DNA of 34,919 nucleotides from positions 1 through 34,919 of the forward strand of contig MTOU01000047.1 in assembly GCA_002011745.1 (NCBI GenBank), in the 5' to 3' direction. Shown one piece after another: positions 15,472 to 30,411 of the stretch. The translations under genes and the position numbers were made by a program. How positions within the stretch are numbered: position 1 is the stretch's first letter; each line of letters begins with the position of its first letter. The notes beneath the pieces were generated by a model. That model worked only from the letters and a program-made list of their open reading frames with translations, was not told the origin of the DNA and ran no database searches. Source of the stretch: Nitrospirae bacterium JdFR-85. GTDB lineage: Bacteria > Nitrospirota > Thermodesulfovibrionia > Thermodesulfovibrionales > JdFR-85.

Positions 15472-16194
15472 ATGGAAGCGATTAAAGACGATAGAAAGAG
15501 CAGAGAATTAATTGAAAGAATTTCAGTTGTTTACAAGAAGGTCTCTCATGCAGCAATGAGGGCAGGCAGAGATCCAGCAGAGGTGAAAGTCCTTGCTGCA
15601 ACAAAGACCGTTCCTGTAGAACTGATAAAGGAGGCTATAGATGCAGGTATAAGACTGATTGGTGAGAACAGGGTTCAAGAGGCAAAAGAAAAAATAGAGG
15701 CCCTGAAAGGAAGAGTTCCTGAGACAGTATCATGGCATATGATAGGACATCTCCAGAAGAACAAAGCAAGAGCGGCTGTACAGCTATTTGATCTTATCCA
15801 TTCTCTTGATTCCTTTGAGCTTGCAGAAAGGCTGAATAGGATCGCCTCTGAGTATGGCAAGATTCAGAGGTGTCTTGTACAGGTGAAACTATCTCATGAG
15901 GAGACAAAGCATGGGATAGCACCAGAAGAGGTGGAGAGATTGCTTGAGAGGATTATAGAGTTAAAGAACCTGAAGATTGAGGGGCTAATGACGATGCCAC
16001 CTTATTTTGAAGACCCTGAGATGGTGAGACCCTATTTCAGAAGATTGAGACTGCTGAGAGAGGCCCTTGAGGGCAAAGGTTATAAATTGCCTGAGCTTTC
16101 AATGGGGATGTCTGGAGATTTTGAGGTGGCGGTTGAAGAGGGTGCAACCATTGTGAGGGTAGGGAGTGCCATTTTTGGACAGAGGAGGTATTAA
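15472..16194 (+). CDS. yggS: YggS-family pyridoxal phosphate-binding protein
   Basis: A 240-residue single-domain PLP protein (PLPBP/YggS, COG0325) that helps maintain B6 and amino or keto acid balance rather than catalysing a fixed reaction. PLP-lysine K45 lies in LAATKTVP; further motifs are IGENRVQE, WHMIGHLQKNK, GLMTMPP and LSMGMSGDFEVAVEEGAT. Length is usual. It stands directly upstream of proC and yggT, the classic conserved order in many bacteria. The start lies 5 bases after a -10 box. Confidence 0.96.
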   Translation: MEAIKDDRKSRELIERISVVYKKVSHAAMRAGRDPAEVKVLAATKTVPVELIKEAIDAGIRLIGENRVQEAKEKIEALKGRVPETVSWHMIGHLQKNKARAAVQLFDLIHSLDSFELAERLNRIASEYGKIQRCLVQVKLSHEETKHGIAPEEVERLLERIIELKNLKIEGLMTMPPYFEDPEMVRPYFRRLRLLREALEGKGYKLPELSMGMSGDFEVAVEEGATIVRVGSAIFGQRRY

Positions 16195-16196
16195 AC

Positions 16197-16979
16197 ATGA
16201 TAGGTTTCATTGGTGGAGGTAACATGGCAGAGGCGATTATTGGAGGAATGAAGGTATCTAAGGAAGATATAGTGGTATCTGATAAGAGAGAAGATAGACT
16301 CCAGTATCTTAAAGAGAAGTTTGGGATTAAAACAACCACTGACAATACTGAGGTCTGTGAGATGGCTGATCTGATACTACTTGCTGTGAAGCCCCAGAAT
16401 ATAGATGAGGTGGTGAGGGAGATAAGAGACCTTCTGCATGAGGAACATTTAGTGGTTTCCATAGCAGCAGGCACAGGACTGAAGTGGCTATGTGATAGTC
16501 TCCAAAGTAGAAGAATTATAAGGGTTATGCCTAATACCCCCGCCCTTGTGGGTGAAGGAATGAGTGTAGTTTCAGCAGCTGAAGGAGTAAGTGAAGAGGA
16601 TATTCAGAGAGTTATGGATATATTTGGTTCAATAGGAGATGTTATCATAATGGATGAGGCAAAGATGGATGCAGTAACTGCTCTGAGTGGTAGTGGTCCT
16701 GCCTTTGTGGCAGAGTTTATTGAGGCAATGATAGAGGCAGGGGTTAGAGAAGGTATTGCCTATCAGGAGGCTTCCAGACTGGTGGTTCAGACTGTAAAGG
16801 GTACTGTAGAGATGTTTAAGGCTGGTATCAGTACCCATGAGATAAAAAAGATGGTGACCTCTCCTGGTGGAACTACTGCAGAGGGCCTGTATAGACTACA
16901 GAAAGGTTCTCTAAAGGCCATTCTGAAGGAGGCTATAGAGGCTGCGAGGAGAAGGTCTCAAGAGTTAAGTAGGGGGTGA
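16197..16979 (+). CDS. proC: Pyrroline-5-carboxylate reductase
   Basis: A 260-residue ProC that makes proline from pyrroline-5-carboxylate with NAD(P)H. The N-terminal Rossmann motif GFIGGGNMAEAI is followed by AVKPQN, RVMPNTPALVGEG and the C-terminal dimer/substrate motif LSGSGPAFVAEFIEAM, then SPGGTTAEGL. It starts 2 bases after the yggS stop with AGAGGAGGT inside the end of yggS. Length is slightly under the commonest 265-275, with all motifs intact. Confidence 0.97.
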   Translation: MIGFIGGGNMAEAIIGGMKVSKEDIVVSDKREDRLQYLKEKFGIKTTTDNTEVCEMADLILLAVKPQNIDEVVREIRDLLHEEHLVVSIAAGTGLKWLCDSLQSRRIIRVMPNTPALVGEGMSVVSAAEGVSEEDIQRVMDIFGSIGDVIIMDEAKMDAVTALSGSGPAFVAEFIEAMIEAGVREGIAYQEASRLVVQTVKGTVEMFKAGISTHEIKKMVTSPGGTTAEGLYRLQKGSLKAILKEAIEAARRRSQELSRG

Positions 16980-16982
16980 GGT

Positions 16983-17279
16983 ATGTTTATTATTGGTAAT
17001 CTTTTTATAGCAGTGGGGAATGTGATTGATATTCTGCTTACAATCTATATGTGGGTGATTATAATTGCTGCACTCGTGAGCTGGGTTAATCCAGACCCCT
17101 ACAATCCTATTGTAAGGTTTCTATATGGGGTTACAGACCCTGTGCTCAGACCTATAAGGAGAAGAGTAGGTGTATTTGGTGGAATTGATATATCACCGAT
17201 GATAGTAATCCTGATAATACTGTTTCTAAAGTATTTTCTTGTAAAAAGCCTTATAGATCTTGGTTACAGGATAAGATAA
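16983..17279 (+). CDS. yggT: YggT-family membrane protein
   Basis: A 98-residue integral membrane protein with two hydrophobic segments (about 3-30 and 68-95) flanking the YggT signature WVNPDPYNPIVRFLYGVTDP and RPIRRR. The family is linked to osmotic stress tolerance in enterobacteria and to the division-associated YlmG proteins elsewhere; the exact activity is unknown. It starts 3 bases after proC ends and leads into divIVA, matching the ylmE-ylmG-divIVA order seen widely. Confidence 0.93.
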   Translation: MFIIGNLFIAVGNVIDILLTIYMWVIIIAALVSWVNPDPYNPIVRFLYGVTDPVLRPIRRRVGVFGGIDISPMIVILIILFLKYFLVKSLIDLGYRIR

Positions 17280-17294
17280 GAAGGGAGGCATATT

Positions 17295-17825
17295 ATGAGA
17301 ATTACGCCACTGGACATTCAACAAAAACAGTTCCCTGTAAGATTCAGGGGCTTTGACATGGAGGAGGTCTATGCCTTCCTTGAAGTAATAAGGGAAGAGA
17401 TGGAAGACCTCATTAGGGAGAATGCTTCCCTGAAAGAACAACTGCACAGGACCGAGGCGCAGCTTCAGGAGTACAGAGAGATGGAGAACACACTGAGGGA
17501 GACATTACTTACTGCCCAACAGTTGGTCGAAGATTACAAGAGTAATGCTCGCAAGGAGGCAGAATTAATAATAAAAGAGGCAGAGATGAAGGCGGATGCG
17601 ATAATAAAAGAGGCCCAGGAGAAAGTGATTAAGATCCATGAGGATATAGTAGACCTTAAGGGTATAAGGAGACACTTTAAGGAAGAACTGAGGAGGCTTA
17701 TAGAATCACATCTCAGGATGCTGGAGTTTGATGAAGAGAGAGAAGAAGATATGGGAGAGGCTATCACAACCGAAGAACCTAAACAGGAGGAGGCAGAAGA
17801 GGACAGTGAAGTACAGGGCACCTAA
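17295..17825 (+). CDS. divIVA: DivIVA-domain coiled-coil protein
   Basis: A 176-residue protein starting with the DivIVA lipid-binding segment (ITPLDIQQKQFPVRFRGFDM, conserved F and R) followed by a long coiled coil with a charged, Lys/Glu-rich AEL-IKEAEMKAD repeat region and an acidic tail. DivIVA proteins gather at curved membrane and organise division or polar growth. SD AAGGGAGG lies before the ATG. The C-terminal 20 bases overlap the start of hisS in another frame. In Gram-negative relatives this is usually annotated only as a DivIVA-domain protein. Confidence 0.92.
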   Translation: MRITPLDIQQKQFPVRFRGFDMEEVYAFLEVIREEMEDLIRENASLKEQLHRTEAQLQEYREMENTLRETLLTAQQLVEDYKSNARKEAELIIKEAEMKADAIIKEAQEKVIKIHEDIVDLKGIRRHFKEELRRLIESHLRMLEFDEEREEDMGEAITTEEPKQEEAEEDSEVQGT

Positions 17826-19056
17826 GGGTGTTCAGGATATATTTCCTCCAGAGGTCTATGTATGGCAGGAAGTAGAGAAAAAGGCGAAAGAAGTCTTCTC
17901 TGTTTACGGATACTCAGAGGTAAGGACACCTATAATAGAGTTTACAGAGGTCTTTACCAGAAGCATAGGTGAGGATACTGACATAGTTGAAAAGGAGATG
18001 TATACCTTCAGTGACAGGGCAGGCAGAAGCATCACCCTCAGGCCTGAAGGTACAGCCTCTGTAGTAAGAGCATATGTACAACACCATCTCTATAATTTAC
18101 CCTCTCCCCAAAAGTTCTTTTATTTAGGACCGATGTTCAGGTATGAGAGACCTCAAAAGGGCAGATACAGACAGTTTCATCAAATTGGGGCAGAGTGTTT
18201 TGGTGAGGATGACCCAAGAGTGGATGCAGAGTTGATTGAGATGCTTAAGAGATTTCTTGAAGAGGTAGGGCTCAGTGGACTTAATTTTGAACTCAACTCA
18301 ATAGGATGTAGAAAATGCCGACCAGAATACAGGGATGTCCTGATAGGGTTTCTTGCAGAAAGGGTGGAGCACCTCTGCAATGACTGTATCAGAAGATACA
18401 GAAGGAATCCTCTGAGAGTACTTGATTGTAAACTTGAAGGCTGTAGGAAAACAACAGAAAGTGCTCCTCAGATTCCAGATTATCTCTGCACTGAATGTAA
18501 GGAACATTTCGGTGCTCTCCAGCAGTATCTTCAGAGACTGAATGTGTCCTATACTGTTAATCCAAGGATGGTGAGGGGACTGGACTACTATACAAGGACC
18601 ACTTTTGAGGTGACATCAGAATCACTGGGTGCACAGAATGCAGTTGCTGCTGGAGGAAGATATGATGGGCTTGTAGAGGAGTTTGGAGGTCCTTCAACCC
18701 CTGCAATAGGTTTTGCTGTGGGTATGGAGAGACTAACCACTCTGCTTATGGAACAGAGAGAGATACAACCTCCAGGGTTGTTGGGCTTCTTTGCAACTAT
18801 GGGCGAAGAGGCAGAGGAAAAGGCCTTCTTCTTGGTGTCTGAACTAAGAAAAAAGGGGTTCTGGGTGGAGATGGATTACAGAGGTAAATCACTGAAGAGT
18901 CAATTCCGGAAGGCAGACAGACTTGGCTCAAGGTATGTATTTATCATAGGCGAAGATGAGATCCAGAAAGGGGTTATAAAGTATAAAAGGATGAGTGATG
19001 GTGCTCAGGGTGAGGTGCCAGAGGAAGAGTTTATCAATTTTCTCACATCTGTATAA
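17806..19056 (+). CDS. hisS: Histidyl-tRNA synthetase
   Basis: A class II synthetase charging tRNA-His. Motifs: motif 1 region VRTPIIEF, motif 2 FRYERPQKGRYRQFHQIGAE, the His-specific VRGLDYYTRTTFE and AAGGRYDGLVEEFGG, motif 3 IGFAVGMERL and a C-terminal anticodon-binding domain. A longer in-frame ORF reaches back to 17728, but its added residues are a frame-shifted reading of divIVA. GTG at 17806 gives 416 residues, the family length, begins VKYRAPKGVQDIFP and has AGGAGGAGG upstream. The gene overlaps divIVA by 20 bases and its 3' end overlaps aat (opposite strand) by 52 bases. Confidence 0.96.
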   Translation: MKYRAPKGVQDIFPPEVYVWQEVEKKAKEVFSVYGYSEVRTPIIEFTEVFTRSIGEDTDIVEKEMYTFSDRAGRSITLRPEGTASVVRAYVQHHLYNLPSPQKFFYLGPMFRYERPQKGRYRQFHQIGAECFGEDDPRVDAELIEMLKRFLEEVGLSGLNFELNSIGCRKCRPEYRDVLIGFLAERVEHLCNDCIRRYRRNPLRVLDCKLEGCRKTTESAPQIPDYLCTECKEHFGALQQYLQRLNVSYTVNPRMVRGLDYYTRTTFEVTSESLGAQNAVAAGGRYDGLVEEFGGPSTPAIGFAVGMERLTTLLMEQREIQPPGLLGFFATMGEEAEEKAFFLVSELRKKGFWVEMDYRGKSLKSQFRKADRLGSRYVFIIGEDEIQKGVIKYKRMSDGAQGEVPEEEFINFLTSV

Positions 19057-19736
19057 TCAACCCTCCATCTGCCTCTACGAGTGGGAACCTTGAGAGCTTC
19101 TTCAAGCATTCTAAGAAACTCCTCACGTGGTATCTCCTTGGCTCCAAAACGTATCATATGCTCAGTTCTCACCTGGCAATCAATGAAATGGAAATTCCAT
19201 CTTTTTAGCTGAAATACAAGGGCAACAAACGCTACCTTTGATGCATCATTTATCCTTCTGAACATACTCTCACCAAAGAATGCAGCTCCAAGACTTACAC
19301 CATACAGTCCACCTACAAGCTCTCCATCTTTCCATGTCTCTACTGAGTGTGCATATCCTTCATGGTGCAGTCTAATATAGGCCCTTATCATATCCTTAGT
19401 AAGCCAAGTATCACCATCCTTCCTCAGGTGTACATCCCTACAAGCAAGTATCACTTCTTCAAAGGCTTTATCCATGCTTACCTGAAAAATTCCCTTTTTG
19501 ATGGTCTGTCTAAGACTCCGGGATACTCTCAGTTCATTAGGAATCAAAATAGGTCTTGGATCAGGAGACCACCATAGTACTGGAGAGCCTTCTGAATACC
19601 ATGGAAATATACCCATCCTGTAGGCAGTAAGCAGTCGTTCTACAGATAGGTCCCCACCAACTGCAAGCAGACCATCCTCATCTGCATACTCTGGTGGGGG
19701 GAAAATGGTCTCTTCTGTCAGATAAAATACAGGCAT
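19005..19736 (-). CDS. aat: Leucyl/phenylalanyl-tRNA-protein transferase
   Basis: A 243-residue Aat that adds Leu or Phe to N-terminal Arg/Lys of proteins, marking them for ClpAP (N-degron pathway). Motifs: GLLAVGGDLSVERLLTAYR, GIFPWY, WWSPDPR, HSVETW, LVGGLYGVSLGAAFFGESMF and FIDCQ. The open frame extends upstream to 20072, but that part lacks family similarity; the ATG at 19736 gives the correct N-terminus MPVFYLTEETIFPPP. TATAAT lies 13 bases upstream and there is no clear Shine-Dalgarno, so the leader is tiny. The last 17 codons lie antisense to the end of hisS. Confidence 0.94.
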   Translation of the reverse strand: MPVFYLTEETIFPPPEYADEDGLLAVGGDLSVERLLTAYRMGIFPWYSEGSPVLWWSPDPRPILIPNELRVSRSLRQTIKKGIFQVSMDKAFEEVILACRDVHLRKDGDTWLTKDMIRAYIRLHHEGYAHSVETWKDGELVGGLYGVSLGAAFFGESMFRRINDASKVAFVALVFQLKRWNFHFIDCQVRTEHMIRFGAKEIPREEFLRMLEEALKVPTRRGRWRVDYTDVRKLINSSSGTSP

Positions 19737-19749
19737 TCTTGTTAATTTT

Positions 19750-19755
19750 ATTATA
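19750..19755 (-). promoter_or_regulatory. Extended -10 promoter of aat
   Basis: The minus strand reads TGT-TATAAT, with the hexamer ending 13 bases before the aat ATG. A start about 7 bases beyond it would leave a leader of some 6 bases, too short for a Shine-Dalgarno sequence. No good -35 is visible. Confidence 0.5.
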
Positions 19756-19816
19756 ACAAAGAATATTATCCCGAATTTTGGTAACGGGCAGTAGTGATAA
19801 CAAGGATGAAGTGAGT

Positions 19817-19822
19817 TATAAT
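19817..19822 (+). promoter_or_regulatory. -10 promoter element of the lipoate ligase gene
   Basis: A perfect TATAAT ends 7 bases before the ATG of the lipoate ligase gene. No convincing -35 was found at 16-18 bases and no Shine-Dalgarno sequence lies in the gap, so a leaderless message is predicted. The region is shared with the divergent aat promoter, about 60 bases away. Confidence 0.5.
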
Positions 19823-19829
19823 TAGATTT

Positions 19830-20618
19830 ATGTATTGGCGAGTTGTGGATACAGGACATCTCGATGCTTACAGTAACATGGCAATAGATGAAGCAGTTTC
19901 TGTAGCAGTTAGAACAGAAAAGGCACCACCTACACTGAGATTCTATATGTGGAAGGACTTTTCTGTGAGTATAGGACAGTTCCAGAGAATCGCAGAGGTT
20001 GATACACTTTTCTGTAGAAAGGAGAATATACCAGTTGTTAGACGCCCTACAGGTGGAAGGGCAATTCTTCATGGTACAGACCTGACATACAGCTTTTCAG
20101 CACCTAATATACCCCCTTTCTTTTCTGAAGGGCTTCTTAGTACTTACTCTCACCTGAGCAAGGCATTCTATATTGCCTTCCGTGCTCTGGACTTTGATGT
20201 AAGGATCAGTTCACGGAGAGAAAAGGGGCGGGTTCTCACTGGAAGTCCTCTCTGTTTTCAGTCTGTATCTTATGGTGAGATTACAATTTTGGGACGTAAG
20301 GTGATGGGTTCTGCACAGAAGAGATGGAAGGATGGGTTTCTACAACAGGGAAGTATTATGCTCACCATTGAAGGTGCTCTCATGAAAAGTGTCTTCAGAG
20401 AAACAGAAAAAGAAAGTATTGCCCAGACAATGATAGGTTTAGCAGAAGTTAATCCCTCTGTTAACCTTGAAGACCTAAAAGAAGCGATAGTTAATGCCTT
20501 TCAGGAAGTCTTTGGAGTAAGCCTTAGAATAGATAACCTTAGCAGATATGAAAAGGACCTTGCAGATAGACTCAAGGAGGAAAAGTATCTAAGTCCTGAG
20601 TGGACAGAAAAGAGATAA
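19830..20618 (+). CDS. Lipoate-protein ligase A family protein (lipoyl/octanoyl transfer)
   Basis: A 262-residue BPL/LplA-fold enzyme with NMAIDEAV, the RFYMWKDFSVSIGQFQ strand, the substrate-loop motif RRPTGGRAILHGTDLTYSF and the catalytic-lysine region GRKVMGSAQKR. It transfers lipoate or octanoate to lipoyl domains such as glycine cleavage H protein or 2-oxoacid dehydrogenases. The short C-terminal accessory part and overall length also fit LipM/LipL-type octanoyltransferases, so ligase versus amidotransferase cannot be decided here. It ends one base away from the convergent rel gene, with no room for a terminator. Confidence 0.9.
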   Translation: MYWRVVDTGHLDAYSNMAIDEAVSVAVRTEKAPPTLRFYMWKDFSVSIGQFQRIAEVDTLFCRKENIPVVRRPTGGRAILHGTDLTYSFSAPNIPPFFSEGLLSTYSHLSKAFYIAFRALDFDVRISSRREKGRVLTGSPLCFQSVSYGEITILGRKVMGSAQKRWKDGFLQQGSIMLTIEGALMKSVFRETEKESIAQTMIGLAEVNPSVNLEDLKEAIVNAFQEVFGVSLRIDNLSRYEKDLADRLKEEKYLSPEWTEKR

Positions 20619-20619
20619 A

Positions 20620-22761
20620 TTATCTTCTCACACTTAATACCCCATCAGTGGATGCTATCTTTTGTGTCAGTATATGTAACTGGTTGCGATCTTTTACCTC
20701 AAGGATTATAGTGAGATAGGCCCTCCTGTCATGGGTTGTATTTGCTTGAAGATGCGAGATATTCACATTCATTGATGATATCAATGCACTGAGACTTGCA
20801 AGAATACCTGGTCTATCTACTGTTTCAACGAACAGTCTTGCAGGTGCTGTGGAATTCTCCTCTGAGACCCAATCTACCTCTATAAGTCTTTCGTCATCTA
20901 CAGCTATCCTCTGGAGATTTGGGCAATCCTTTCTATGGATTGTAACCCCTTTGCCCCTTGTTACAAAACCTACGAGATAGTCTCCAGGCACAGGATAACA
21001 ACATCTTGCAGTATGATAGAGAATATCATCTATGCCCTTGATCTTTATTCCTCTTGTAGGTTCAACTTTTTTTGTGTGTTTTACCTTGAGTTCTTCTTCA
21101 TCTTCTTTTTCTTCATGTTTGAGTCTGTTTATTACCTGCTGTGCTGATATCTTTGCATAGCCTATTGAAACGAGAAGGTCTTCTCTACTTTTGAGACTGA
21201 AAGAATGTGCCACCTTTTCCATTTCGTCGGACTTAATTAGAGAAGGACTGAGATTTCTCTTTCTCAACTCCTCTTCAAGTATTCTGTAGCCAAGTTCATA
21301 ACTCTGTTTTCTCTCCTCTGACTTGATCCACTGTCTTATTCTTGTTCTTGCACGTTGTGTAACCACAAAGTTTAGCCAGTCCCTACTTGGACCATGGTTT
21401 GGTGAGGTAATAATCTCCACAGTATCTCCGCTCTGGAGCTGATAACGGAGAGGAACAATTCTACCATTAACCCTTGCTCCAATACATCTGTGTCCCACTT
21501 CTGTATGAATGGCATAGGCAAAATCAACAGGTGTGGCACCAGCAGGCAGTTCCTTGATATCCCCTTTTGGGGTAAAAACATAGACCACATCGGGTACAAC
21601 TTCACCTTTAACCATCTCAAGAAACTCTCGTGCATCCTTGAGGTCCTTCTGTGAATGTATCAGCTCTCTTAACCATTTTATGTATTTTGCGTCCTTTTCC
21701 AACACATGTCCGCCCTCTTTGTACATCCAGTGGGCTGCTATTCCTTCCTCTGCTATCCTGTGCATATCATATGTTCTTATCTGAAATTCGACTCTTTCGC
21801 CTTTTGGTCCAATTACAGAGGTATGCAGTGATTGATACATATTTGATTTTGGCAGGGCAATATAGTCTTTAAACCGGCCAGGTATGGGTTTCCACAGAGA
21901 ATGTATAAGTCCCAGTATTTCATAGCAGCGCCTTTCAGTATCTGTAATTATTCTTAGACCAAGTACATCATAGACCTGTTCAAAAGGTATCCTTTGTATC
22001 TGCATCTTCCGATATATACCATATAGATGCTTCACCCTTCCTGTAACCTCTCCAGGTATATTATTCTCTTTGAGTTTCTCTCTTACTATCTCTGCAACCT
22101 CTTCTATATAACCCTCCTGTTCTTCTTTCCTCTTTGCTACCTTTTTCAAAAGAGATTTGTATATGTCAGGATAGAGATACTTAAAGCTTAGGTCCTCAAA
22201 CTCTGTTCTCATCCAGCCGATTCCGAGTCTGTTGGCAAGAGGTGCATAGATCTCAAGTGTTTCCTGTGCAATTCTTCTTTGTTTACTGGGAGGTAGATAC
22301 TGGAGTGTCCTCATGTTATGTAATCTGTCAGCAAACTTTATCATAATAACTCTGATATCCTCTGCCATAGCGAGAAACATCTTTCTGAAATTTTCTGCCT
22401 GAGCATCTTCTTTCGTCTTGAATTCCATTTTACTCAATTTAGTGAGGGAGCCCACCAAAAAGGCCACATCTTTGCCGAATAGTTCTTCTATATCCTTTAG
22501 ATTAGTTTCTGTATCTTCCACTGTGTCATGAAGAAGTCCTGCGATGATGGTTGTTGTATCCATATGCATATCTGCAAGAATAGAGGCAACCTGAAGAGGA
22601 TGATCAATATAGGGTGTGCCTTCAACCCTTTTCTGGCTGCAGTGCGCTTCATGGGAGAAGTAGTAGGCCTTTCTTAGTAGAGCAATATCGGCCTTTGGAT
22701 TGTATGTTTTTACCTTGGCAGATAGTTCATCAAATGTGATAAGCTTATAATTCGTCTTCAT
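20620..22761 (-). CDS. relA/spoT: Bifunctional (p)ppGpp synthetase/hydrolase (Rel/SpoT)
   Basis: A 713-residue long RSH protein. N-terminal HD hydrolase domain with H54, H78-D79 and E82-D83 (HDTVEDT) intact; synthetase domain with RFKD (296-299), LPKSNMYQSLHTSV and FQIRT; then TGS (about 390-450), a conserved-cysteine segment (TARCCYPVPGD) and a C-terminal ACT domain (about 645-713). RFKD rather than ExDD and the intact HD residues indicate both synthesis and hydrolysis of the alarmone. It appears to be a single bifunctional Rel. A good promoter lies so close to the ATG that the mRNA is probably leaderless. Confidence 0.97.
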   Translation of the reverse strand: MKTNYKLITFDELSAKVKTYNPKADIALLRKAYYFSHEAHCSQKRVEGTPYIDHPLQVASILADMHMDTTTIIAGLLHDTVEDTETNLKDIEELFGKDVAFLVGSLTKLSKMEFKTKEDAQAENFRKMFLAMAEDIRVIMIKFADRLHNMRTLQYLPPSKQRRIAQETLEIYAPLANRLGIGWMRTEFEDLSFKYLYPDIYKSLLKKVAKRKEEQEGYIEEVAEIVREKLKENNIPGEVTGRVKHLYGIYRKMQIQRIPFEQVYDVLGLRIITDTERRCYEILGLIHSLWKPIPGRFKDYIALPKSNMYQSLHTSVIGPKGERVEFQIRTYDMHRIAEEGIAAHWMYKEGGHVLEKDAKYIKWLRELIHSQKDLKDAREFLEMVKGEVVPDVVYVFTPKGDIKELPAGATPVDFAYAIHTEVGHRCIGARVNGRIVPLRYQLQSGDTVEIITSPNHGPSRDWLNFVVTQRARTRIRQWIKSEERKQSYELGYRILEEELRKRNLSPSLIKSDEMEKVAHSFSLKSREDLLVSIGYAKISAQQVINRLKHEEKEDEEELKVKHTKKVEPTRGIKIKGIDDILYHTARCCYPVPGDYLVGFVTRGKGVTIHRKDCPNLQRIAVDDERLIEVDWVSEENSTAPARLFVETVDRPGILASLSALISSMNVNISHLQANTTHDRRAYLTIILEVKDRNQLHILTQKIASTDGVLSVRR

Positions 22762-22767
22762 AATCTT

Positions 22768-22796
22768 ATAATAAAACCTTCTATGGATTTATTCAA
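22768..22796 (-). promoter_or_regulatory. Promoter of the rel gene
   Basis: On the minus strand TTGAAT (22791-22796), a 17-base spacer and TATTAT (22768-22773) are followed after 6 bases by the ATG. This is the clearest leaderless layout in the window: both boxes are good, spacing is ideal, the predicted +1 is the A of ATG, and there is no Shine-Dalgarno sequence. Confidence 0.7.
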
Positions 22797-22901
22797 GATG
22801 TTAGAGCTTCTACCGATAACGAAAGAGGTCTTGTGCTGGAGTTAACGGCAAGTTAGGGAATTCCAAGATGAAGAAATATTATAAAGGGCGGCAAAAAACT
22901 T

Positions 22902-22978
<77 letters not shown>

Positions 22979-22984
22979 ATATTT

Positions 22985-23014
22985 ATAATAAAAAACCCTC
23001 TATTTTTTTGTCAA
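22985..23014 (-). promoter_or_regulatory. Promoter of the initiator tRNA
   Basis: On the minus strand a perfect TTGACA (23009-23014), an 18-base spacer and TATTAT (22985-22990), with the tRNA 5' end only 6 bases beyond. The predicted transcription start therefore falls at or within a base or two of position 1 of the mature tRNA. The -35 overlaps the TGA stop codon of the flavoprotein gene. Confidence 0.72.
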
Positions 23015-24231
23015 TCTAACATAGGGCTCATAATATCCACATATGATAGAGTTCCAGCAATTGCTTTGTCTTTCAGATTGCCGAGAGTTATTTTATTTTT
23101 TATCAGACTCGCATAAAGTCCTGCCTTCTCTACTTCTCCCATGAAGACCGCACCAACAAGCTTGTCATCGCTAAAAAGGAGTCTTCTGTAACCATTCGGG
23201 AGAGTGGATACATGGGTTTCGCATACATCTGACTCAATTACTCCCACAGAGATGAAAGGTATTCCCAGGATCTCTGTGGCATTCATTACTGAAAGAAACC
23301 CACTGTATCTGAGTTTCTGGCCTGCCATGTTGCTGCCTGCAATCCTTCCCATCTCTTCCGCATTGCTCCAGAGTCCACTTACTGCTTGGGAGCCAGTAAC
23401 TATATCAACATACTCAACCACATCCCCTGCAGCATATATATCAGGAATACTACACTGAAGGGTCTCATTGACAACAATCCCCCTTTTTATCTCTATGCCG
23501 GAGTCTTTTAGAAAATCCACAGAGGGCTTCACACCTATGGCAATCAGTACTAGATCTGCATCCAGCACTTTCCCCGATGAGAGCTTCACAGCCTTGACAC
23601 TCCCTTCTTCAGATACTATCTCTTCCACTGTTTCGGATGTGTATACAGAGACTCCTTCTCTCTCAACAGCCTGCCTTATGGTGTCTGCTCCAGCGCTGTC
23701 AAGTCTTCCCTTCAGGATATGTTCAAGCATCTCCACGATTGTGACCTTCAGTCCAATGCCTCTCAGTGCAAGAGCGCCCTTTATACCCACGAGCCCGCCG
23801 CCTATTACTACCGCCTTCTTTCTGCCCGTAGCATACCCTTTTATATTTACTGCATCGGCGTATGTCCTGAGGGTAAACACACCTTCAGAGTTAATGCCCT
23901 CAATGGATGGTAGTATCGGGGTGCCTCCAGTTGATATTAATAATCTGTCATAAGTGATGCTCTGTCCATTGGACAGAATAAGTTCTTTTTTGTCTGGATC
24001 CAGTCCTTCTGCCCTTGCATGGATGACCTCAACCCTGAACTCACTTGCAGGGTCATCGGGAAAGGTGATGTCAATCTCTCTGTCTTCTATTAACAAGGGT
24101 ATAAGGGGACGATAATAAGGAGCCTTCTTCTCGTCGGTCACGGCAACGATTTCTGCATCAGGTTGAATTTGTCTGATGGCTCTTGAGGCAGAAACACCGG
24201 CTATACTGTATCCCACTATTAGATAACGCAT
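23011..24231 (-). CDS. FAD/NAD(P)-dependent oxidoreductase of the CO dehydrogenase cluster
   Basis: A 406-residue two-dinucleotide-fold flavoprotein of the pyridine nucleotide-disulfide oxidoreductase class 2 type, resembling NADH-dependent ferredoxin/rubredoxin reductases and the N-terminal part of NirB. It shows an N-terminal FAD site (GYSIAGVSA), STGGTP, a central NAD site (VIGGGLVGIKGALAL, ending in VEM, an acid that favours NADH) and the second FAD motif DIYAAGDVVEY. No redox-active disulfide is apparent. It follows the cooF-like gene directly and most likely takes electrons from CO via CooF to reduce NAD(P)+. The same trio (CODH, CooF, FNOR) is known from other anaerobes. Confidence 0.92.
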   Translation of the reverse strand: MRYLIVGYSIAGVSASRAIRQIQPDAEIVAVTDEKKAPYYRPLIPLLIEDREIDITFPDDPASEFRVEVIHARAEGLDPDKKELILSNGQSITYDRLLISTGGTPILPSIEGINSEGVFTLRTYADAVNIKGYATGRKKAVVIGGGLVGIKGALALRGIGLKVTIVEMLEHILKGRLDSAGADTIRQAVEREGVSVYTSETVEEIVSEEGSVKAVKLSSGKVLDADLVLIAIGVKPSVDFLKDSGIEIKRGIVVNETLQCSIPDIYAAGDVVEYVDIVTGSQAVSGLWSNAEEMGRIAGSNMAGQKLRYSGFLSVMNATEILGIPFISVGVIESDVCETHVSTLPNGYRRLLFSDDKLVGAVFMGEVEKAGLYASLIKNKITLGNLKDKAIAGTLSYVDIMSPMLD

Positions 24232-24723
24232 TTATGCCTCCCCCATTGCAGCCTGAAGAAGCACCTTCTTCCTCTTATCAGCAGACAGTTCATCCACATC
24301 CTTGAGTACCAGAGCACCTGTGGGACAGGCATTCACACAGGCTGGTACATCCAGTTTGTGACACCTGTCACACTTTACTGCAATACGGGCATCCTTGTCT
24401 CTTGTTATAACCCCGAATGGGCACACCATTATGCAGGTCCAACAACCTATACACCTTTCCTTCCGTCTCCTCACAAAGCCCTTCTCATCCTTGTAAAGGC
24501 ATCCACTTATACACGCCCTGAGACAGGGGGCGTCCTCACAGTGCCTGCAGATCACAGGCATCTTTATACCCTCGGCCTGTTCAACAAAGAGCCTCTTCTT
24601 AGGAGGAGGTGACTGAAGCACTGCTGAAAAGAGGTTCTTGTCCTTTGAATGCTGTACAGCACATCCAATCTCACAGCTTCTGCATCCCATACATCTTTCT
24701 GGTCTCACAAATACCTGATTCAT
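24232..24723 (-). CDS. cooF: CooF-like 4Fe-4S electron-transfer protein
   Basis: A 163-residue polyferredoxin of the CooF/HycB/DmsB type with sixteen cluster cysteines in four groups: CMGCRSCEIGC, CRHCEDAPCLRAC, CIGCWTCIMVC and CDRCHKLDVPACVNACP. It accepts electrons from the CO dehydrogenase B/D clusters and passes them on, here probably to the adjacent flavoprotein. It starts 10 bases after cooS and abuts the oxidoreductase gene. There is no Tat or Sec signal, so it is cytoplasmic. The name is by family and context; HycB-like proteins of other complexes look similar. Confidence 0.9.
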   Translation of the reverse strand: MNQVFVRPERCMGCRSCEIGCAVQHSKDKNLFSAVLQSPPPKKRLFVEQAEGIKMPVICRHCEDAPCLRACISGCLYKDEKGFVRRRKERCIGCWTCIMVCPFGVITRDKDARIAVKCDRCHKLDVPACVNACPTGALVLKDVDELSADKRKKVLLQAAMGEA

Positions 24724-24733
24724 CAGACACCTC

Positions 24734-26641
24734 CTATGCAGAAAGCCCTAAGGCCCTACGCCTCTCGCTTAGGGCATTAAGCAGTTTCTCAGATGCCTTC
24801 TCAGGGTCAGTCTCCACAATGAAGTATCCACCCAGAAGGTCCTTTACACCAGAGGTGAGCACTTCTGTCACGACTCTGCTTCCGAGCACCGGTGGCACTA
24901 CGCCCACATGGGTTGGCAGCCCTGCTGCCACAGCCCATGTTCCTATTGCTATCGCCTTCTCAGTAACAGGTTCTGGAGCGGATGCAACAACCGGTAGGCT
25001 GTCCAGATCAGTGCCGAGCTTGTTTGCCACTGCAACTGCCACATCCGCTGCCCTTGTGTTGTCCACGCATGAGCCCATGTGAAGCACCAGAGGCAGTGGA
25101 CCTCCAAGGCCTGCTGCCTCACCTATTGCAGTAAGCACCGCCTTCAGGCCATCACCTGCGTACTCCTTGGTAGCCTCAGGAGTCATAAAACCATGCCTCG
25201 CAAAGGCACCCGATGCGCAGCCTGTGGCAAGTATCAGGACATTCTGTTTTGCAAGTATCTGTATCATCCTCAGGTAGTTTGCATCCTGAGGGACCTTAAC
25301 TGTATTACACCCTGCAAAGAGACATACTCCGTAGATGTTTCCCTCAACGATCTGATCAATAAGTGGCTTGAGAGGGTCTTCTTTGTTCAGCAGTGACAGG
25401 GCCTGCACCACTGCCTCGGTTGAAAAACCTGCAAAGGCAACACTGCTTGCATCAGGGATGTTCACCTTGTTGGGGTCACGGTTTTTGAACGCCTCTATTG
25501 CGGTTCTTATTATCTCACGGGCAACCTTAAGGGCTTCCTTTTCTTTAAACTCTATGTGTACAGCCCCTGGAATCTTTGATATTGGCATTGTGGTAATTAT
25601 CTTTGTATGAAGACATTCTGAAATTCCTGAAAGCCCTGGCATTACACACTGATAGTCAACCACCATTGCGTCAATAGCACCTGTCAGCAGAGCTGTCTCC
25701 TGTGATACGGAGCTTGTTGCAAGGGGTATCTTGTGACGCATCATCACCTCGTTACCTGTACAGCATATGCCTACTACATTTATCCCATCTAATGCCCCTG
25801 CCTCCTTGGCCATGTTGATTAGTTCAGGTTCTCCTGCTGCCTGAACCACCATCTCGCTCAGAAGGGGATTGTGACCATGGAGTGCTATATTAATAGTATC
25901 CTTTTTTATTACTCCGAGATTTGCCATGCTCTTAACTGGCGAAGGAGTTCCAAAGAGTATATCTGCAATATCTGTTGCCATATGACAGGCAGCATAATCA
26001 GCCAGAGCACACTTTATGGCACCAAGAAGGAGGTTCACTGGATCTGAATCTACTCCATAGGTGCTTCTATGCATTGCTTCTGAAACAGAGCTGTCAATAC
26101 CTGTAGGGACCACGCCGAGCTTCAAGAACTTCTCTACTCTTGCCTTTGTTACTGTGGTAGCTGCCCATGTAAGTGGAGAGTCTTTTTCAGAGAAATCTTC
26201 AAGTGCTTTTTTTGCCACCTCTAAGGCGATCTCCTCTTTTGAACGGCCCTCTGTCTGGATGCCTATTCTCTCAGCAACCGCCCTGAGTTTTGATTCGTCT
26301 TTAATGGGATAATCAGATGCCTCTCCCGTGGCAGACTTAAGCAGCGTATGGGCCATGTGTTTTGCATGTCCACCATGCGATGCGGTACCAGCAGCCACTG
26401 CCCTTAGTATACCTCTCGCAACCATCACATCCGCAGTAGCACCACAGACTCCCGCCTTTGGTCCCTCATCAAAGGGGCTTATTCTACAGGGTCCCTGCAT
26501 ACAGTTACGGCAGCAGAGCCCTGTCTCGCCAAAACCACATTGGGGCAGTTGTTCCTCATATCTATCCCATGCAGTCTTCACCCCCAGAGCAATGGCATTC
26601 TTTAAGGCTTCAGTAGTTGCAATATCCATTGACCTTTCCAT
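24734..26641 (-). CDS. cooS: Anaerobic Ni-Fe carbon monoxide dehydrogenase, catalytic subunit
   Basis: A 635-residue CooS converting CO and water to CO2, two electrons and protons. The ligand set is complete: D cluster C35 and C43; B cluster C44, C47, C52 and C66; C cluster H257 (HGHNP), C294, C332, C445 (AGCNTVKV), C475 and C525 (MGSCVDN); catalytic Lys at 562 and His in SHGGHAKH. AGGAGG precedes the ATG. No cooC, cooA, hydrogenase or acetyl-CoA synthase gene is adjacent, so this is a stand-alone CODH with electron carriers, not the Wood-Ljungdahl or ECH type. Base composition is visibly higher in G+C than neighbours, which could mean acquisition. Confidence 0.97.
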   Translation of the reverse strand: MERSMDIATTEALKNAIALGVKTAWDRYEEQLPQCGFGETGLCCRNCMQGPCRISPFDEGPKAGVCGATADVMVARGILRAVAAGTASHGGHAKHMAHTLLKSATGEASDYPIKDESKLRAVAERIGIQTEGRSKEEIALEVAKKALEDFSEKDSPLTWAATTVTKARVEKFLKLGVVPTGIDSSVSEAMHRSTYGVDSDPVNLLLGAIKCALADYAACHMATDIADILFGTPSPVKSMANLGVIKKDTINIALHGHNPLLSEMVVQAAGEPELINMAKEAGALDGINVVGICCTGNEVMMRHKIPLATSSVSQETALLTGAIDAMVVDYQCVMPGLSGISECLHTKIITTMPISKIPGAVHIEFKEKEALKVAREIIRTAIEAFKNRDPNKVNIPDASSVAFAGFSTEAVVQALSLLNKEDPLKPLIDQIVEGNIYGVCLFAGCNTVKVPQDANYLRMIQILAKQNVLILATGCASGAFARHGFMTPEATKEYAGDGLKAVLTAIGEAAGLGGPLPLVLHMGSCVDNTRAADVAVAVANKLGTDLDSLPVVASAPEPVTEKAIAIGTWAVAAGLPTHVGVVPPVLGSRVVTEVLTSGVKDLLGGYFIVETDPEKASEKLLNALSERRRALGLSA

Positions 26642-26662
26642 GACTGCCTCCTTTTGAAGATA

Positions 26663-26691
26663 TTAATAATTCACACATTATATTAAATCAA
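26663..26691 (-). promoter_or_regulatory. Candidate promoter of the cooS cluster
   Basis: On the minus strand TTGATT (26686-26691), 17 bases and TATTAA (26663-26668) precede a leader with AGGAGG at normal distance from the cooS ATG. A TATAAT inside the spacer is an alternative -10. Everted TTCACA and TGTGAA half sites (26670-26675 and 26704-26709) flank the -35. The exact start is uncertain. Confidence 0.35.
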
Positions 26692-26753
26692 CATAATAGA
26701 TATTGTGAAGGCTTTTATAATCTTAATAATTACAAAATCCAGAAGATTGTCTA

Positions 26754-27848
26754 CTAGTTGTCTTTGATCAATTCAAGAATAATCCTGTTTGACAGAAGCA
26801 TACCTCTGTCTGTCAGTACAATCCTATCGTTGTTGATTTTTATTAGCCCCTGTTTCTGTAAGTTGTTGATTAAAGTATTGTTTGGGATTCTGCTGATGTC
26901 TATGCCTCTGCTGGTTCTGAGACCAAGCATTATCTCTTCCTCTCTGATGTCCTTCTCGTGTAGCTCTATCTTCTCCGCAGTTGCTTTCCCTTCAGTTTTT
27001 ATTATTTTAATATATCTATGTACATCTGCAACATTACGGGTTCGTCTGTTAGAAATAAGTGATGATGCAGAGGCCCCGAAACCTATATATTCCCCTCTAA
27101 GCCAGTAGTTAAGGTTGTGTCTGCATTGACCCCCCGGTGTGGCGTAGTTTGATATCTCGTAATGCTCGTAGCCTTGAGATCTCAGTACATTCACAATACA
27201 CCAGTACATCTCTTCCACCTTTTCTTCTTCAGGCAACTTGAGGATGTGGTTTTTGATCTGTTGGTGTAGGTGTGTTCCTTCCTCTACAGTGAGTTCATAT
27301 GCTGAGATATGTGGTGGTTTTACTTTTAGAACAGTGTTCAGTGTTGTCTCAACTGAGAGAGTATCCTGTCCAGGGATGCCATAGATGAGGTCCACAGAGA
27401 AGTTCTCATAACAGTCTGAGACGAGCCAGAGTGCCTCTTTTGCCTTTTTTACATCGTGTGTTCTTCCAAGCAGGATTAGTTCATTCTGGTTTAGAGACTG
27501 AACTCCGAGGCTCAGCCTGTTTATGCCGAGAGACTTTAGTTGTAGAAGCTTTTTTCTGTCCACTGTTTCAGGATTTGCCTCAATAGATACCTCTGGCTCA
27601 GACACAAAGGAGAATCTTTTCTCTAAGGAAGACAGAATTCTTTCAATATCAGAGATGTCGAGCACCGTGGGGGTGCCACCTCCGAAGTATACCGTTTCTA
27701 TTTGTTGAGAATAATCAGAGTATGAGATTTCTTTGAGGAGTGCCTCTGTGTAGTGCTCTTTCAGAGAGGTATCAAAAGGAACTGAACAAAAGTTGCAGTA
27801 GTGACATTTCTTTGTACAGAATGGGATGTGGATATAAATTCCAGCCAT
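26754..27848 (-). CDS. hemW: HemW-type radical SAM haem chaperone (CPDH-like)
   Basis: A 364-residue radical SAM protein. The N-terminus MAGIYIHIPFC carries C11, C15 and C18 (CxxxCxxC followed by NF), the HemW pattern rather than the CxxxCxxCxC of HemN coproporphyrinogen oxidase; YFGGGTPTV, LGVQSL, DLIYGIPGQ and HNLNYWLRGEYIGFG follow. HemW proteins bind haem and deliver it to respiratory enzymes. An upstream in-frame ATG at 27905 would add 19 residues of no similarity that lie within a palindrome, so the ATG at 27848 is chosen. There is no Shine-Dalgarno sequence and TATAAT lies 6 bases upstream. Confidence 0.93.
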   Translation of the reverse strand: MAGIYIHIPFCTKKCHYCNFCSVPFDTSLKEHYTEALLKEISYSDYSQQIETVYFGGGTPTVLDISDIERILSSLEKRFSFVSEPEVSIEANPETVDRKKLLQLKSLGINRLSLGVQSLNQNELILLGRTHDVKKAKEALWLVSDCYENFSVDLIYGIPGQDTLSVETTLNTVLKVKPPHISAYELTVEEGTHLHQQIKNHILKLPEEEKVEEMYWCIVNVLRSQGYEHYEISNYATPGGQCRHNLNYWLRGEYIGFGASASSLISNRRTRNVADVHRYIKIIKTEGKATAEKIELHEKDIREEEIMLGLRTSRGIDISRIPNNTLINNLQKQGLIKINNDRIVLTDRGMLLSNRIILELIKDN

Positions 27849-27854
27849 TTTTAT

Positions 27855-27860
27855 ATTATA
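27855..27860 (-). promoter_or_regulatory. -10 promoter element of hemW
   Basis: A perfect TATAAT on the minus strand, 6 bases from the hemW ATG, predicts a leaderless message. The nearest -35-like hexamer, TTGAAC, is at 20 bases and lies within a palindrome, so expression may depend on a regulator. Confidence 0.5.
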
Positions 27861-27865
27861 ATGAA

Positions 27866-27893
27866 AAAGGGCTTGAACAGGTTCAAGCCCTTT
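27866..27893. repeat. Perfect 28-bp palindrome upstream of hemW
   Basis: AAAGGGCTTGAAC and its exact inverse complement are separated by only two bases. On the minus strand it is followed by TTTTTC, so it could act as an intrinsic terminator. However, it lies upstream of the predicted hemW transcription start and covers the -35 region, which also suits an operator. The region between hemW and the kinase gene holds this and a second hairpin. Confidence 0.75.
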
Positions 27894-27931
27894 CTGACAC
27901 TTCAAATTACAATAATCCTTGCCGAAGATTA

Positions 27932-27960
27932 AAGCTCTCCGGCCGAAGGTCGGAAGGCTT
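27932..27960 (+). other. G+C-rich hairpin in the leader of the kinase gene
   Basis: CCGGCC-GAA-GGTCGG forms a six-pair stem (one G-T pair) with a GAA loop, enclosed by AAGC/GCTT. It stands out from an A+T-rich intergenic region, about 30 bases before the ATG of the 7TM kinase gene. There is no T-run after it, so it is not a standard terminator. It does not match a riboswitch that I can name. Confidence 0.45.
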
Positions 27961-27992
27961 CACTAATAGATAGTTAGGGATAAATATAGAAT

Positions 27993-29804
27993 ATGCGGTT
28001 AACAAGTATAGTGGTGTTCTTACTTTTATTACCAATACCTGTTTTTGCGACCTCTTTAAAACCCTTTATTGTTCTTGACGGGAAACACCGATTCTCTACG
28101 GGAGACAACCCTGACTGGGCCGTATCCGGTTTTGACGACTCCTCCTGGCAAATGATAAAAGTACCCGGTAGCTGGCGCTCACAGGGTATCAGACCTTTAA
28201 GAGGGTTTGGATGGTATAGAATCCACTTCATTGTACCAGAAGAGATTAAAACTATTCAGCCTGCTGTGCATCTCGGTATTATAGGTGATGCTGATGAGGT
28301 ATACCTGAACGGGATTAAGATAGGGGGAGAGGGTAAAGTCGGTAACAATTTTGTGATACCTCCTTATATTAAAAGAATTTACAGAATACCTGAAAAACTG
28401 CTGAGATATGATAGGCCAAATGTTCTCGCCATAAGAGTGATGAATCTCTTTTATGACGGTGGAATAGTAGGAGACAGCGTTGTTATTACTGACTACAGAG
28501 ATCTTCTTGTAGAAAGAACAGACAGACAGATGATTATCAAGGCATCAGAGATTGCGATGTTGGCACTTATAGGACTGTTCTTTCTGGGCTGTTTCTTTCT
28601 CTATATTAAAGGTATAAGAGAAAGCATATATTTTGCCTTCTTGATGTTCGTCTATGGAAGTATCTTCTTGCTTGAAAGTCTCTTATTCTACCACACGGGC
28701 CTTAAAACCCCCACAATTCAGAGGCTCAGTCTTTCACTCATGGGGCTCTTCCCTGTGAGTCTACTTCTGTTCACCTTGAATTTTTTTGATACACCTTTCC
28801 GCCCCTTTTATAGAATCATTGTATACTCCACAGTCGTTATATCCCTTATAGCTTTTTTGTGCTTCTCATTTAATACATACCCCTTTTTTATGTTGCTCTG
28901 GATAATCCTTATTCTACCTATCTATACAGGAACAATTCTATTTCTTGTTATAAGTGCTTATCGTAAAAACAAGCCCGAAAGTGGAGCGATTTTGGTCGGT
29001 ATTACAGGATTCATACTTGCCTCTCTAACTGGAGACTTTACAGCATTTTTTCATCTGGGACTGGAGGAGGTGTCCTATCCACTGTATCCATGGGATTATG
29101 GAATGGCATTTTTCTTGGTATGTATTATGTACGGCATGATCACAAGATTTATTCGGGCAAGAAATAGGATGCATCTTCTGGCATCCCGTATACTCGCAGC
29201 CCATGAAGAGGAGAGAAAACGTCTTGCAAGGGAGTTACATGACAGTCTTGGACAGAATCTACTCGCAGTAAAGTTTAATCTTCAGAGGATCAACCAGAAA
29301 TTACAGAGGAAAGAGATTAGTTCAATCATTACAGAGATTGACAGAAGTATTGAAGAATTGAGAGATATCTCAATGGGGCTCAGACCTGCCATGCTTGCGG
29401 AGATGGGTTTAGCAGTAGCACTCAAGCTATTTAGCAAAAGTTTCACCAAAAAGACTGGTATACATATCAAGATGAGGGTAAATGTTACTGACCGTCTGCA
29501 TCCACGGATAGAAGAAAACCTTTTCAGGATATTTCAGGAGGCATTGAGTAACGTAGTGAGACACTCTGATGCTCAGGAGGTAGAGGTATCAGTAGAAAGG
29601 ATTTCCAGGATTTTGACCATGCAGATAAAAGACAACGGTAGAGGTTTTAAACCTGATGAGATAAAAAGCAACGGAATCGGGCTATCAACAATGGCAGAAA
29701 GGGCTGACCTTATGGGAGGTGTACTAAGAGTAGTGAGTTCAAAAGGAAGAGGTGCAACTATTATTGTAGAGGTTCCGATAAGTGAAAAAGATATTGGTAG
29801 TTGA
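27993..29804 (+). CDS. Sensor histidine kinase with jelly-roll sensor and 7TM region (NarX/DesK-type kinase domain)
   Basis: A 603-residue protein. A signal peptide (about 1-20) precedes a beta-rich jelly-roll domain like the sugar-binding domain of glycosidases (about 22-168; WYRIHFIVP, YLNGIKIGGEG, NVLAIRV), then about seven transmembrane helices (about 185-388) of the 7TMR-DISM kind, then a HisKA_3 dimerisation segment with H416 (RLARELHDSLGQNL) and HATPase with DNGRGF and GIGLSTMAERA. It should sense an extracytoplasmic ligand, perhaps a carbohydrate, and phosphorylate the overlapping NarL-type regulator. The ATG is preceded by a weak AGGGA. Ligand unknown. Confidence 0.88.
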   Translation: MRLTSIVVFLLLLPIPVFATSLKPFIVLDGKHRFSTGDNPDWAVSGFDDSSWQMIKVPGSWRSQGIRPLRGFGWYRIHFIVPEEIKTIQPAVHLGIIGDADEVYLNGIKIGGEGKVGNNFVIPPYIKRIYRIPEKLLRYDRPNVLAIRVMNLFYDGGIVGDSVVITDYRDLLVERTDRQMIIKASEIAMLALIGLFFLGCFFLYIKGIRESIYFAFLMFVYGSIFLLESLLFYHTGLKTPTIQRLSLSLMGLFPVSLLLFTLNFFDTPFRPFYRIIVYSTVVISLIAFLCFSFNTYPFFMLLWIILILPIYTGTILFLVISAYRKNKPESGAILVGITGFILASLTGDFTAFFHLGLEEVSYPLYPWDYGMAFFLVCIMYGMITRFIRARNRMHLLASRILAAHEEERKRLARELHDSLGQNLLAVKFNLQRINQKLQRKEISSIITEIDRSIEELRDISMGLRPAMLAEMGLAVALKLFSKSFTKKTGIHIKMRVNVTDRLHPRIEENLFRIFQEALSNVVRHSDAQEVEVSVERISRILTMQIKDNGRGFKPDEIKSNGIGLSTMAERADLMGGVLRVVSSKGRGATIIVEVPISEKDIGS

Positions 29805-30411
29805 CGACCATACCATATTCAGACAGTGTATTGTAGGACAGATCAATACACAACAGGGGTGTGAAGTAGTGGCAGAGACGGGCTCAGGTGCTGCTGCTGT
29901 AAGACTTGCTGAAGACCTTGCCCCTGATGTGATTATTATGGATATTTCACTTCCTGATATAGATGGTATAGAAGCGGTAAAAAGGCTAAGACAGAAGAAA
30001 GGGAAATGGAAGATAATACTTCTCAGTATGTATAAATATCCTGAAATAGTGGATTATCTCGAGGAAATAGGGGTTGATGGTTATCTTCTGAAGAATGACG
30101 CCTTTGAAGACCTTCTTTATGCTATTAAGGCAGTAAGTGAAGGGAAGAGGTATATAAGTCCTTCGCTGTTGACAGATGAAACCTCTGTATCAAAAATATC
30201 CTCTTTCTCTCTGTCTTCTCTTACTGAAAGAGAGAAGGAGATAGTTTCTCTTATAGCCGAAGGCCTTACCAGTAGAGAGATTGCAGACCGCCTCTGTATA
30301 AGTATAAAGACAGTGGAGACCCACAGGGCAAGAATAATGGAGAAGCTTAAGGTCAGAAATGTTGCAGAACTGATCAGGTATGCAATAAAGGTAGGAATAT
30401 TGAAGGTTTGA
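29782..30411 (+). CDS. NarL/FixJ-type response regulator
   Basis: A 209-residue regulator: receiver (2-120) with D9, phosphorylation site D54 (IIMDISLPD), the switch serine in LLSMY and the lysine in LLKND, then a LuxR-type helix-turn-helix (about 143-205; LTEREKEIVSLIAEGLTSREIA, ISIKTVETHRARIMEKL). The start is GTG at 29782 inside the end of the kinase gene, giving a 23-base overlap and tight coupling to the HisKA_3 kinase, the usual partner class. Targets are unknown. It ends 8 bases from the convergent coiled-coil gene. Confidence 0.94.
   Translation: MKKILVVDDHTIFRQCIVGQINTQQGCEVVAETGSGAAAVRLAEDLAPDVIIMDISLPDIDGIEAVKRLRQKKGKWKIILLSMYKYPEIVDYLEEIGVDGYLLKNDAFEDLLYAIKAVSEGKRYISPSLLTDETSVSKISSFSLSSLTEREKEIVSLIAEGLTSREIADRLCISIKTVETHRARIMEKLKVRNVAELIRYAIKVGILKV

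Follow-up and report, generated by a model that had tools for sequence, protein, structure and literature searches.

The Initiator tRNA Locus

The window analyzed here is a stretch of 34,919 nucleotides from Nitrospirae bacterium JdFR-85 (contig MTOU01000047.1). On its reverse strand it carries a tRNA-Met gene with the CAT anticodon (22902..22978; identified by ARAGORN, Rfam tRNA score 65.9 bits), flanked upstream by the gene of a pyridine nucleotide-disulphide oxidoreductase (Pyr_redox_2; 23011..24231) and downstream by a RelA/SpoT-like gene with HD_4, RelA_SpoT, TGS, and ACT domains (20620..22761), both also on the reverse strand. Bacterial initiators are defined by the CAT anticodon, the open 1:72 end, the GGG/CCC anticodon stem, and A11-T24. 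All of these can be read from this gene, the 1:72 position being unpaired due to an A1×C72 mismatch and the anticodon stem having three G-C pairs; the tRNA is thus an initiator, as claimed in the first-pass annotation. Its CCA is encoded (22904-22902), and three bases past it on the same strand there is a run of six T's (22893..22898), a possible signal for the 3' end.

The gene is preceded by a -35 hexamer TTGACA (23009..23014, reverse strand), which includes the oxidoreductase gene's stop codon, TGA (23013-23011), and, after a spacer of 18, by a -10 hexamer TATTAT (22985..22990). Then follow the six bases of the discriminator, AAATAT (22979..22984), and position 1 of the tRNA, an A at 22978, exactly the arrangement that had been described. 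The promoter matches the consensus at 11 of 12 positions and is one of the two best among 37 promoter-like sites in the region 16000-30000. As 26.6 sites with at least nine matches are expected there by shuffling, weak promoter-like sites carry no meaning. By contrast, the whole window, with both strands counted, contains only three sites with at least 11 matches (about 1.7e-4 per place over a 4-base offset range), and therefore a chance coincidence of the promoter with the tRNA start is unlikely.

The RelA/SpoT-like gene is preceded by TTGAAT-17-TATTAT-6-ATG (22762-22796, reverse strand), a geometry similar to that of the initiator gene, and its mRNA may be leaderless. Hence at least one good example stands behind the earlier mention of leaderless protein genes in the window.

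The available rules of start-site choice derive from E. coli and may not be those of Nitrospirota; the G following the start is counted in them on the non-template strand. The preferred start is a purine 7 bp below the -10, with a pyrimidine before it and a G after it, while purine-rich discriminators shift starts upstream, the positions used being 6-9 bp from the -10 (PMC5730371, excerpts). A1 fits these rules, as it is an A located 7 bp from the -10, preceded by T and followed by G, with a purine-rich beginning of the discriminator. It is the expected first transcribed base (22978, reverse strand), so the geometry does predict a start at the mature 5' end, as had been proposed, this being a prediction from the sequence.

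RNase P Genes

The idea of a leaderless tRNA had been linked to organisms without RNase P, such as Nanoarchaeum. The genome of JdFR-85 (2.33 Mb, 47 contigs, 100% complete) gave no match to the RNase P RNA model RF00010 at E 0.001 (all 39 candidates scored) and no match to the rnpA model PF00825. Hence neither rnpA nor RNase P RNA was found, as that idea implied, but the genome encodes HARP, a protein-only RNase P, instead. The single HARP gene matches PF08745 (PIN_5) with E 9.4e-60 and TIGR03875 with 200.7 bits against the cut-off of 95.3; residues 19-200 of 222 align to seven distinct PDB sequences of the solved "RNA-free ribonuclease P" (best E 7.9e-66). By these similarities, its product is predicted to be a protein-only RNase P. 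The HARP gene (L001 1447-2115, forward strand) is convergent with an overlapping RNA ligase gene (2106-3245, reverse strand; TIGR01209); an RNA ligase has been described as a HARP partner, with Thermodesulfovibrionales named (PMC12153264, excerpts).

The rnpA gene is absent from its usual place: rpmH (L297 1480-1629) directly abuts yidD (1629-1838), while a relative from the same order (G083) has the order rpmH-rnpA-yidD. Here rpmH was identified by PF00468, and rnpA and yidD were named from their sequences. Similarly, rpmH adjoins yidD and rnpA is missing in Aquifex (PMC10941002, excerpts). Overall, JdFR-85 resembles other HARP-only bacteria (Aquificaceae and some Nitrospirae) in having HARP and neither detectable rnpA nor RNase P RNA, and we found no difference in the enzyme. 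HARP-only Nitrospirae have already been published (PMC6380272 and PMC8266387, excerpts). The excerpts of these two papers and of PMC10941002 do not mention the geometry of tRNA promoters.

In our sample of 118 genomes from the phylum, HARP over the cut-off was found in 23, all from the order of the window, and rnpA in 86; no genome had both, and nine had neither. Two genomes with rnpA had weak PF08745 matches below the cut-off. The order of the window is mixed, with four sampled genomes carrying rnpA and 23 carrying HARP. RF00010, the sole RNase P RNA model used, which finds the B. subtilis RNA in a control, gave no match in JdFR-85 or the 22 other HARP genomes (some of the latter with only 36 candidates scored), and matched in five of five non-HARP members of the class.

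tRNA Promoters in the JdFR-85 Genome

A promoter with at least nine of 12 matches ends 4-13 bases upstream of 21 of the 42 tRNA genes, compared to 1.8% of random window positions and 3.7% of shuffled upstream regions. This bears on the possibility that TTGACA/TATTAT is weak or unused, and that the initiator tRNA comes from read-through of the oxidoreductase gene, its 5' end being cut by HARP. Indeed, the two genes are on the same strand and 32 nt apart, and a scan revealed no terminator-like site between them. Still, we consider read-through quite unlikely as the main source, given the 11 of 12 matches in the promoter, the presence of similarly placed promoters at half of the tRNA genes versus 2-4% in controls, and the conservation of the -35 and its distance in relatives (see below).

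The gaps, that is, the numbers of bases between the -10 and the tRNA, were 7-13 for 18 of the 21 called genes and six for two, Arg-CCG and the initiator. One further gene was listed at five, but when a spacer of 19 was allowed, a better site appeared at 10. Thus the initiator shares its gap with Arg-CCG, both being at the short end of the range in this genome, and the close placement does not extend to most other called tRNA genes. Such a distribution is also what one would expect if the initiator had an ordinary short leader, with transcription starting a few bases upstream, at the A at 22980 or those at 22982-22984, and HARP trimming the product. The discriminator A's could start a transcript, and HARP genomes have short elongator leaders (median 5 nt in 138 of the 150 matches listed). 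On the other hand, these A's are no more than 5 bp away from the -10, compared to the 6-9 bp of the positions used (PMC5730371, excerpts), and, together with the initiator gaps in relatives described below, this makes the short leader unlikely.

In Nanoarchaeum equitans, all tRNAs are leaderless and have a triphosphate end, and RNase P is absent (PMC10100707, excerpts). The initiator gene of JdFR-85 is similar in that its promoter would put the start at or beside the mature 5' end, as predicted from the geometry. Unlike in Nanoarchaeum, the prediction of a leaderless transcript concerns only one tRNA, or perhaps two, the genome encodes a protein-only RNase P, and the promoter belongs to the bacterial sigma-70 type. 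The majority of called tRNA genes retain leaders of a few nucleotides, and some tRNA genes are arranged in tandem (e.g., Val-Ser and Pro-Arg), which means that RNase P is still needed. Moreover, C1 or T1 is retained in five of the 42 tRNAs. The genome is therefore not of the Nanoarchaeum type, and the parallel with an organism devoid of RNase P fails. That leaders were lost to compensate for the loss of RNase P could be suggested by the lack of detectable rnpA and RNase P RNA and by the two genes with the gap of six, but it is highly improbable given HARP, the leaders and tandem genes, the C1 and T1 tRNAs, and the close initiator promoters in genomes with rnpA.

CCA is encoded in all 42 tRNA genes of this HARP-only genome, which is odd, as the HARP of Hydrogenobacter is reported to be about 10 times slower when the precursor carries CCA (PMC10652100, excerpts).

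Initiator Promoters Across Nitrospirota

Initiator matches were present in 116 of the 118 genomes; with 14 genomes having partial or weak matches left out, 102 initiator genes were read (30 loci and 72 stretches), and a promoter was called at 97 of them, five having no call. The gap was at most seven in 54 genes. Two doubtful calls at three, in family f5, where a site at eight fits about equally well, and at one gene of f7, were removed, yielding 52 of 97 initiator genes with gaps of 5-7. Such gaps are the rule in five of 20 families (f1, f3, f18, f19, and f21).

Among families with HARP, the gap is six in the window (f1), seven in seven of seven genes of f3, and 7-9 in the eight genes of f6, while f2, f4, and f8 have gaps of 10-27. 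Family f1 comprises a single genome in the sample, and its gap of six thus comes from one gene. Among families without HARP, the gap is five in all 22 genes of f18, 5-6 in all 19 of f19, and five in both genes of f21; the remaining ones have gaps of 10-34, except for the doubtful f7 call at three, with f15 having no call. The non-HARP group comprises 81 genomes, five of which (G029, G033, G044, G045, and G054) lack an rnpA match as well; RNase P RNA was searched for in five genomes of this group. In f18, f19, and f21 together, 42 of 43 genomes carry rnpA, the exception being G044 (89% complete), and none has HARP over the cut-off. Since the close promoter is present in families with rnpA and without HARP, it cannot be ascribed to the loss of RNA-based RNase P. 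It thus looks independent of the RNase P type, being seen with both, and the HARP families f2, f4, and f8 do not have it.

Families f3, f18, and f19 conserve the -35 as well as its spacing to the initiator gene. In f18 and f19, the -10 often departs strongly from the consensus (TAnnnT), and we located it from the -35, assuming a spacer of 18. By eye, a spacer of 18 bases and a -10 resembling TAGNAT recur in many elongator and initiator promoters of f18 and f21, possibly a lineage-specific promoter form. For comparison, E. coli metZ, as read from its sequence, has TATAGT with a gap of 13 and a G at -2.

The initiator tRNA gene is interrupted by a group I intron (RF00028) in three Nitrospirota genomes (G108, G064, and G081), at L261 546-749 (forward strand), L262 74-275 (reverse), and L263 174-375 (forward). 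The initiator gene of G065 (L264) is split in a similar way, with no RF00028 match at the threshold.

Leaders of Elongator tRNAs

We estimated elongator leaders from genes matching TTGAC[A/T]...TAGCTCAG within a set distance, and all counts below refer to such genes. In f18, f19, and f21, the leader was at least 3 nt, with the median of 9 (53 of 62 matches used). Because a backward control pattern gave 31 matches against 62, the matches in these families were selected by eye; of the nine dropped, those from G043, G105, and G110 look like genuine tRNA-Arg genes whose leaders measure 3-4 nt, and restoring them leaves the minimum of three unchanged. None of the 53 elongators used has its -10 as near to the tRNA as the initiators of these families (gap 5-6), which is a further argument against an ordinary short leader. 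In f3, the median leader was 9.5 nt (40 used, among the matches listed). The longer leaders of elongators in all these families make the near-zero leader a property of the initiator gene.

Shorter leaders could also have followed from the loss of RNA-based RNase P. The median elongator leader was 5 nt in HARP genomes (138 genes in 23 genomes, among the matches listed) and 11 nt in rnpA genomes (106 genes in 28 genomes; three of 109 dropped), with p 0.005 for genome medians; backward control patterns gave three and four matches, respectively. For HARP genomes, 150 of 155 matches were listed (one of six for G104), and 12 of these were dropped, nine lying off tRNA genes by eye and three being outer copies of a doubled -35; one retained match (G096) has too short a spacing, yielding a leader of -4. 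We rejected this explanation, as in the rnpA genomes from the order of the window the median is 6 nt (27 genes). The shorter leaders of HARP genomes may reflect kinship or AT content.

Position 1, Base 72, and Position -2

Gaps of at most seven are found in 15 of 15 initiator genes of the phylum with A1, 19 of 56 with C1, and 19 of 25 with T1. T1 is not restricted to short gaps, as f17 combines it with gaps of 20-34 (T1:T72). We then considered A1 alone as a mark of leaderless initiators, using a scan of named genomes with 80 A1 genes listed from at least 117 stretches. Among the genes listed, gaps of 5-7 occurred in 25 of 27 from genomes named as Nitrospirota and in four of 53 others (18 of them without a call). 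This candidate mark was rejected, as it is false outside the phylum, where Pseudomonas and Syntrophorhabdaceae/Syntrophorhabdus genes have A1 with gaps of 11-16. Some A1 initiators outside the phylum have a -10-like site five bases off, namely L085 and L109 (Acidobacteria-type) and L102 and L115 (Nitrospinales).

Base 72 was read in 95 of the 102 initiator genes. In genes with the gap of five, the nominal position 1 may be T, C, A, or G, varying even within three genera, while A72 is present in 37 of 37, so that T1-A72 pairing is possible in 16 of 37 (the genera are not independent). In genes with gaps of at least 10, 1:72 pairing is possible in none of 34. A 1:72 mismatch occurs in 98.6% of bacterial initiators, and a U1-A72 match is mentioned in others (PMC5143459, excerpts). 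Therefore U1-A72 initiators as such are known, and it is their share in the gap-5 families that is unusual. Possibly nucleotide 1 is left untranscribed in these families, or possibly they tolerate U1-A72. By the E. coli rules, the start at the gap of five may be at G2 or later, or else the rules may not be transferable. It is conceivable, if distinctly improbable, that the initiator alone is leaderless in several families with either enzyme and that the gap-5 transcripts perhaps start at G2, lacking nucleotide 1. If so, the absent nucleotide would by itself enforce the open end that marks the initiator.

A G at position -2 is said to be tied to the choice of the RNase P site on pre-tRNAfMet, reportedly the subject of work by Lazard and Meinnel in 1998. 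PMC11143913 (excerpts) refers to Lazard and Meinnel (1998) on G-2 and to Meinnel and Blanquet (1995). We found G at -2 in 21 of 38 non-HARP genes with a long gap or no call, 11 of 43 non-HARP genes with a short gap, and two of 21 HARP genes. The suggestion that this G persists only where cleavage by RNase P is required was rejected, as the difference between short-gap and other genera is not significant (genus-level p of 0.29 and 0.13).

A Predicted Leader-Free Start of the Initiator tRNA

Taken together, these observations make it somewhat more probable than not that the initiator promoter is set for a start on A1, a feature of the initiator gene that would bypass RNase P with or without HARP. 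RNA polymerase starting on A1 would yield an initiator tRNA with a 5'-triphosphate, requiring no cut by RNase P. The C1-A72 mismatch compromises 5' processing (PMC5143459, excerpts, citing Meinnel and Blanquet, 1995). We infer that the promoter may have become fixed at the bypass distance because the open 1:72 end is processed poorly, being a poor substrate for RNase P, and such a bypass would likely be beneficial. Position 1 would have changed to A, with which transcription starts efficiently, while C72 preserves the mismatch, and read-through transcripts from the oxidoreductase gene, if any, would be trimmed by HARP. As judged from gene geometry, the leader-free start looks initiator-specific and independent of the RNase P type. 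It also looks like a bypass for the initiator rather than a sign of a missing enzyme, since HARP is present and some relatives with rnpA place the promoter equally close. Against this explanation, the close placement is found in a minority of families (five of 20), the HARP families f2, f4, f6, and f8 have wider gaps, A1 occurs with gaps of 11-16 outside the phylum, and the expected rarity of G at -2 in short-gap genera did not clearly emerge.

Short-leader pre-tRNAs of E. coli reportedly need RppH before RNase P. They resemble the predicted initiator transcript in that any 5' extension is very short, close to the minimum that RNase P can handle; unlike it, they retain a leader of a few nucleotides that is cut by RNase P. 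A parallel is also provided by the CCA encoded at initiator genes, for which the same pressure, inefficient processing due to the 1:72 mismatch, has been suggested (PMC5143459, excerpts). That case concerns the 3' end, however, and leaderless starts are not discussed in the excerpts, the word "leader" being absent from the main text of the paper.

According to a 2024 review, tRNAs are made as precursors in all life, with the single exception of Nanoarchaeum (PMC10941002, excerpts). In Haloferax, 39 of 52 tRNA genes have starts reported to lie near the mature 5' end (PMC4983044, excerpts). We looked for precedents in bacterial start-site studies, and leaderless tRNAs are not reported in the excerpts of PMC3848588, PMC4681348, PMC8079986, and PMC5670726. 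Searches of an open-licence collection of papers did not reveal the initiator-specific pattern that we see across families.

The order of the window, with its four rnpA and 23 HARP genomes, is a natural experiment in which a ribozyme has been replaced by a protein. If the leader-free start holds in several families, some of them with rnpA, the bypass of RNase P would be a trait open to selection in a single tRNA whose 5' end is unusual, and not only a rescue following the loss of the enzyme. The role of triphosphate initiator tRNAs in formylation and initiation would then become testable.
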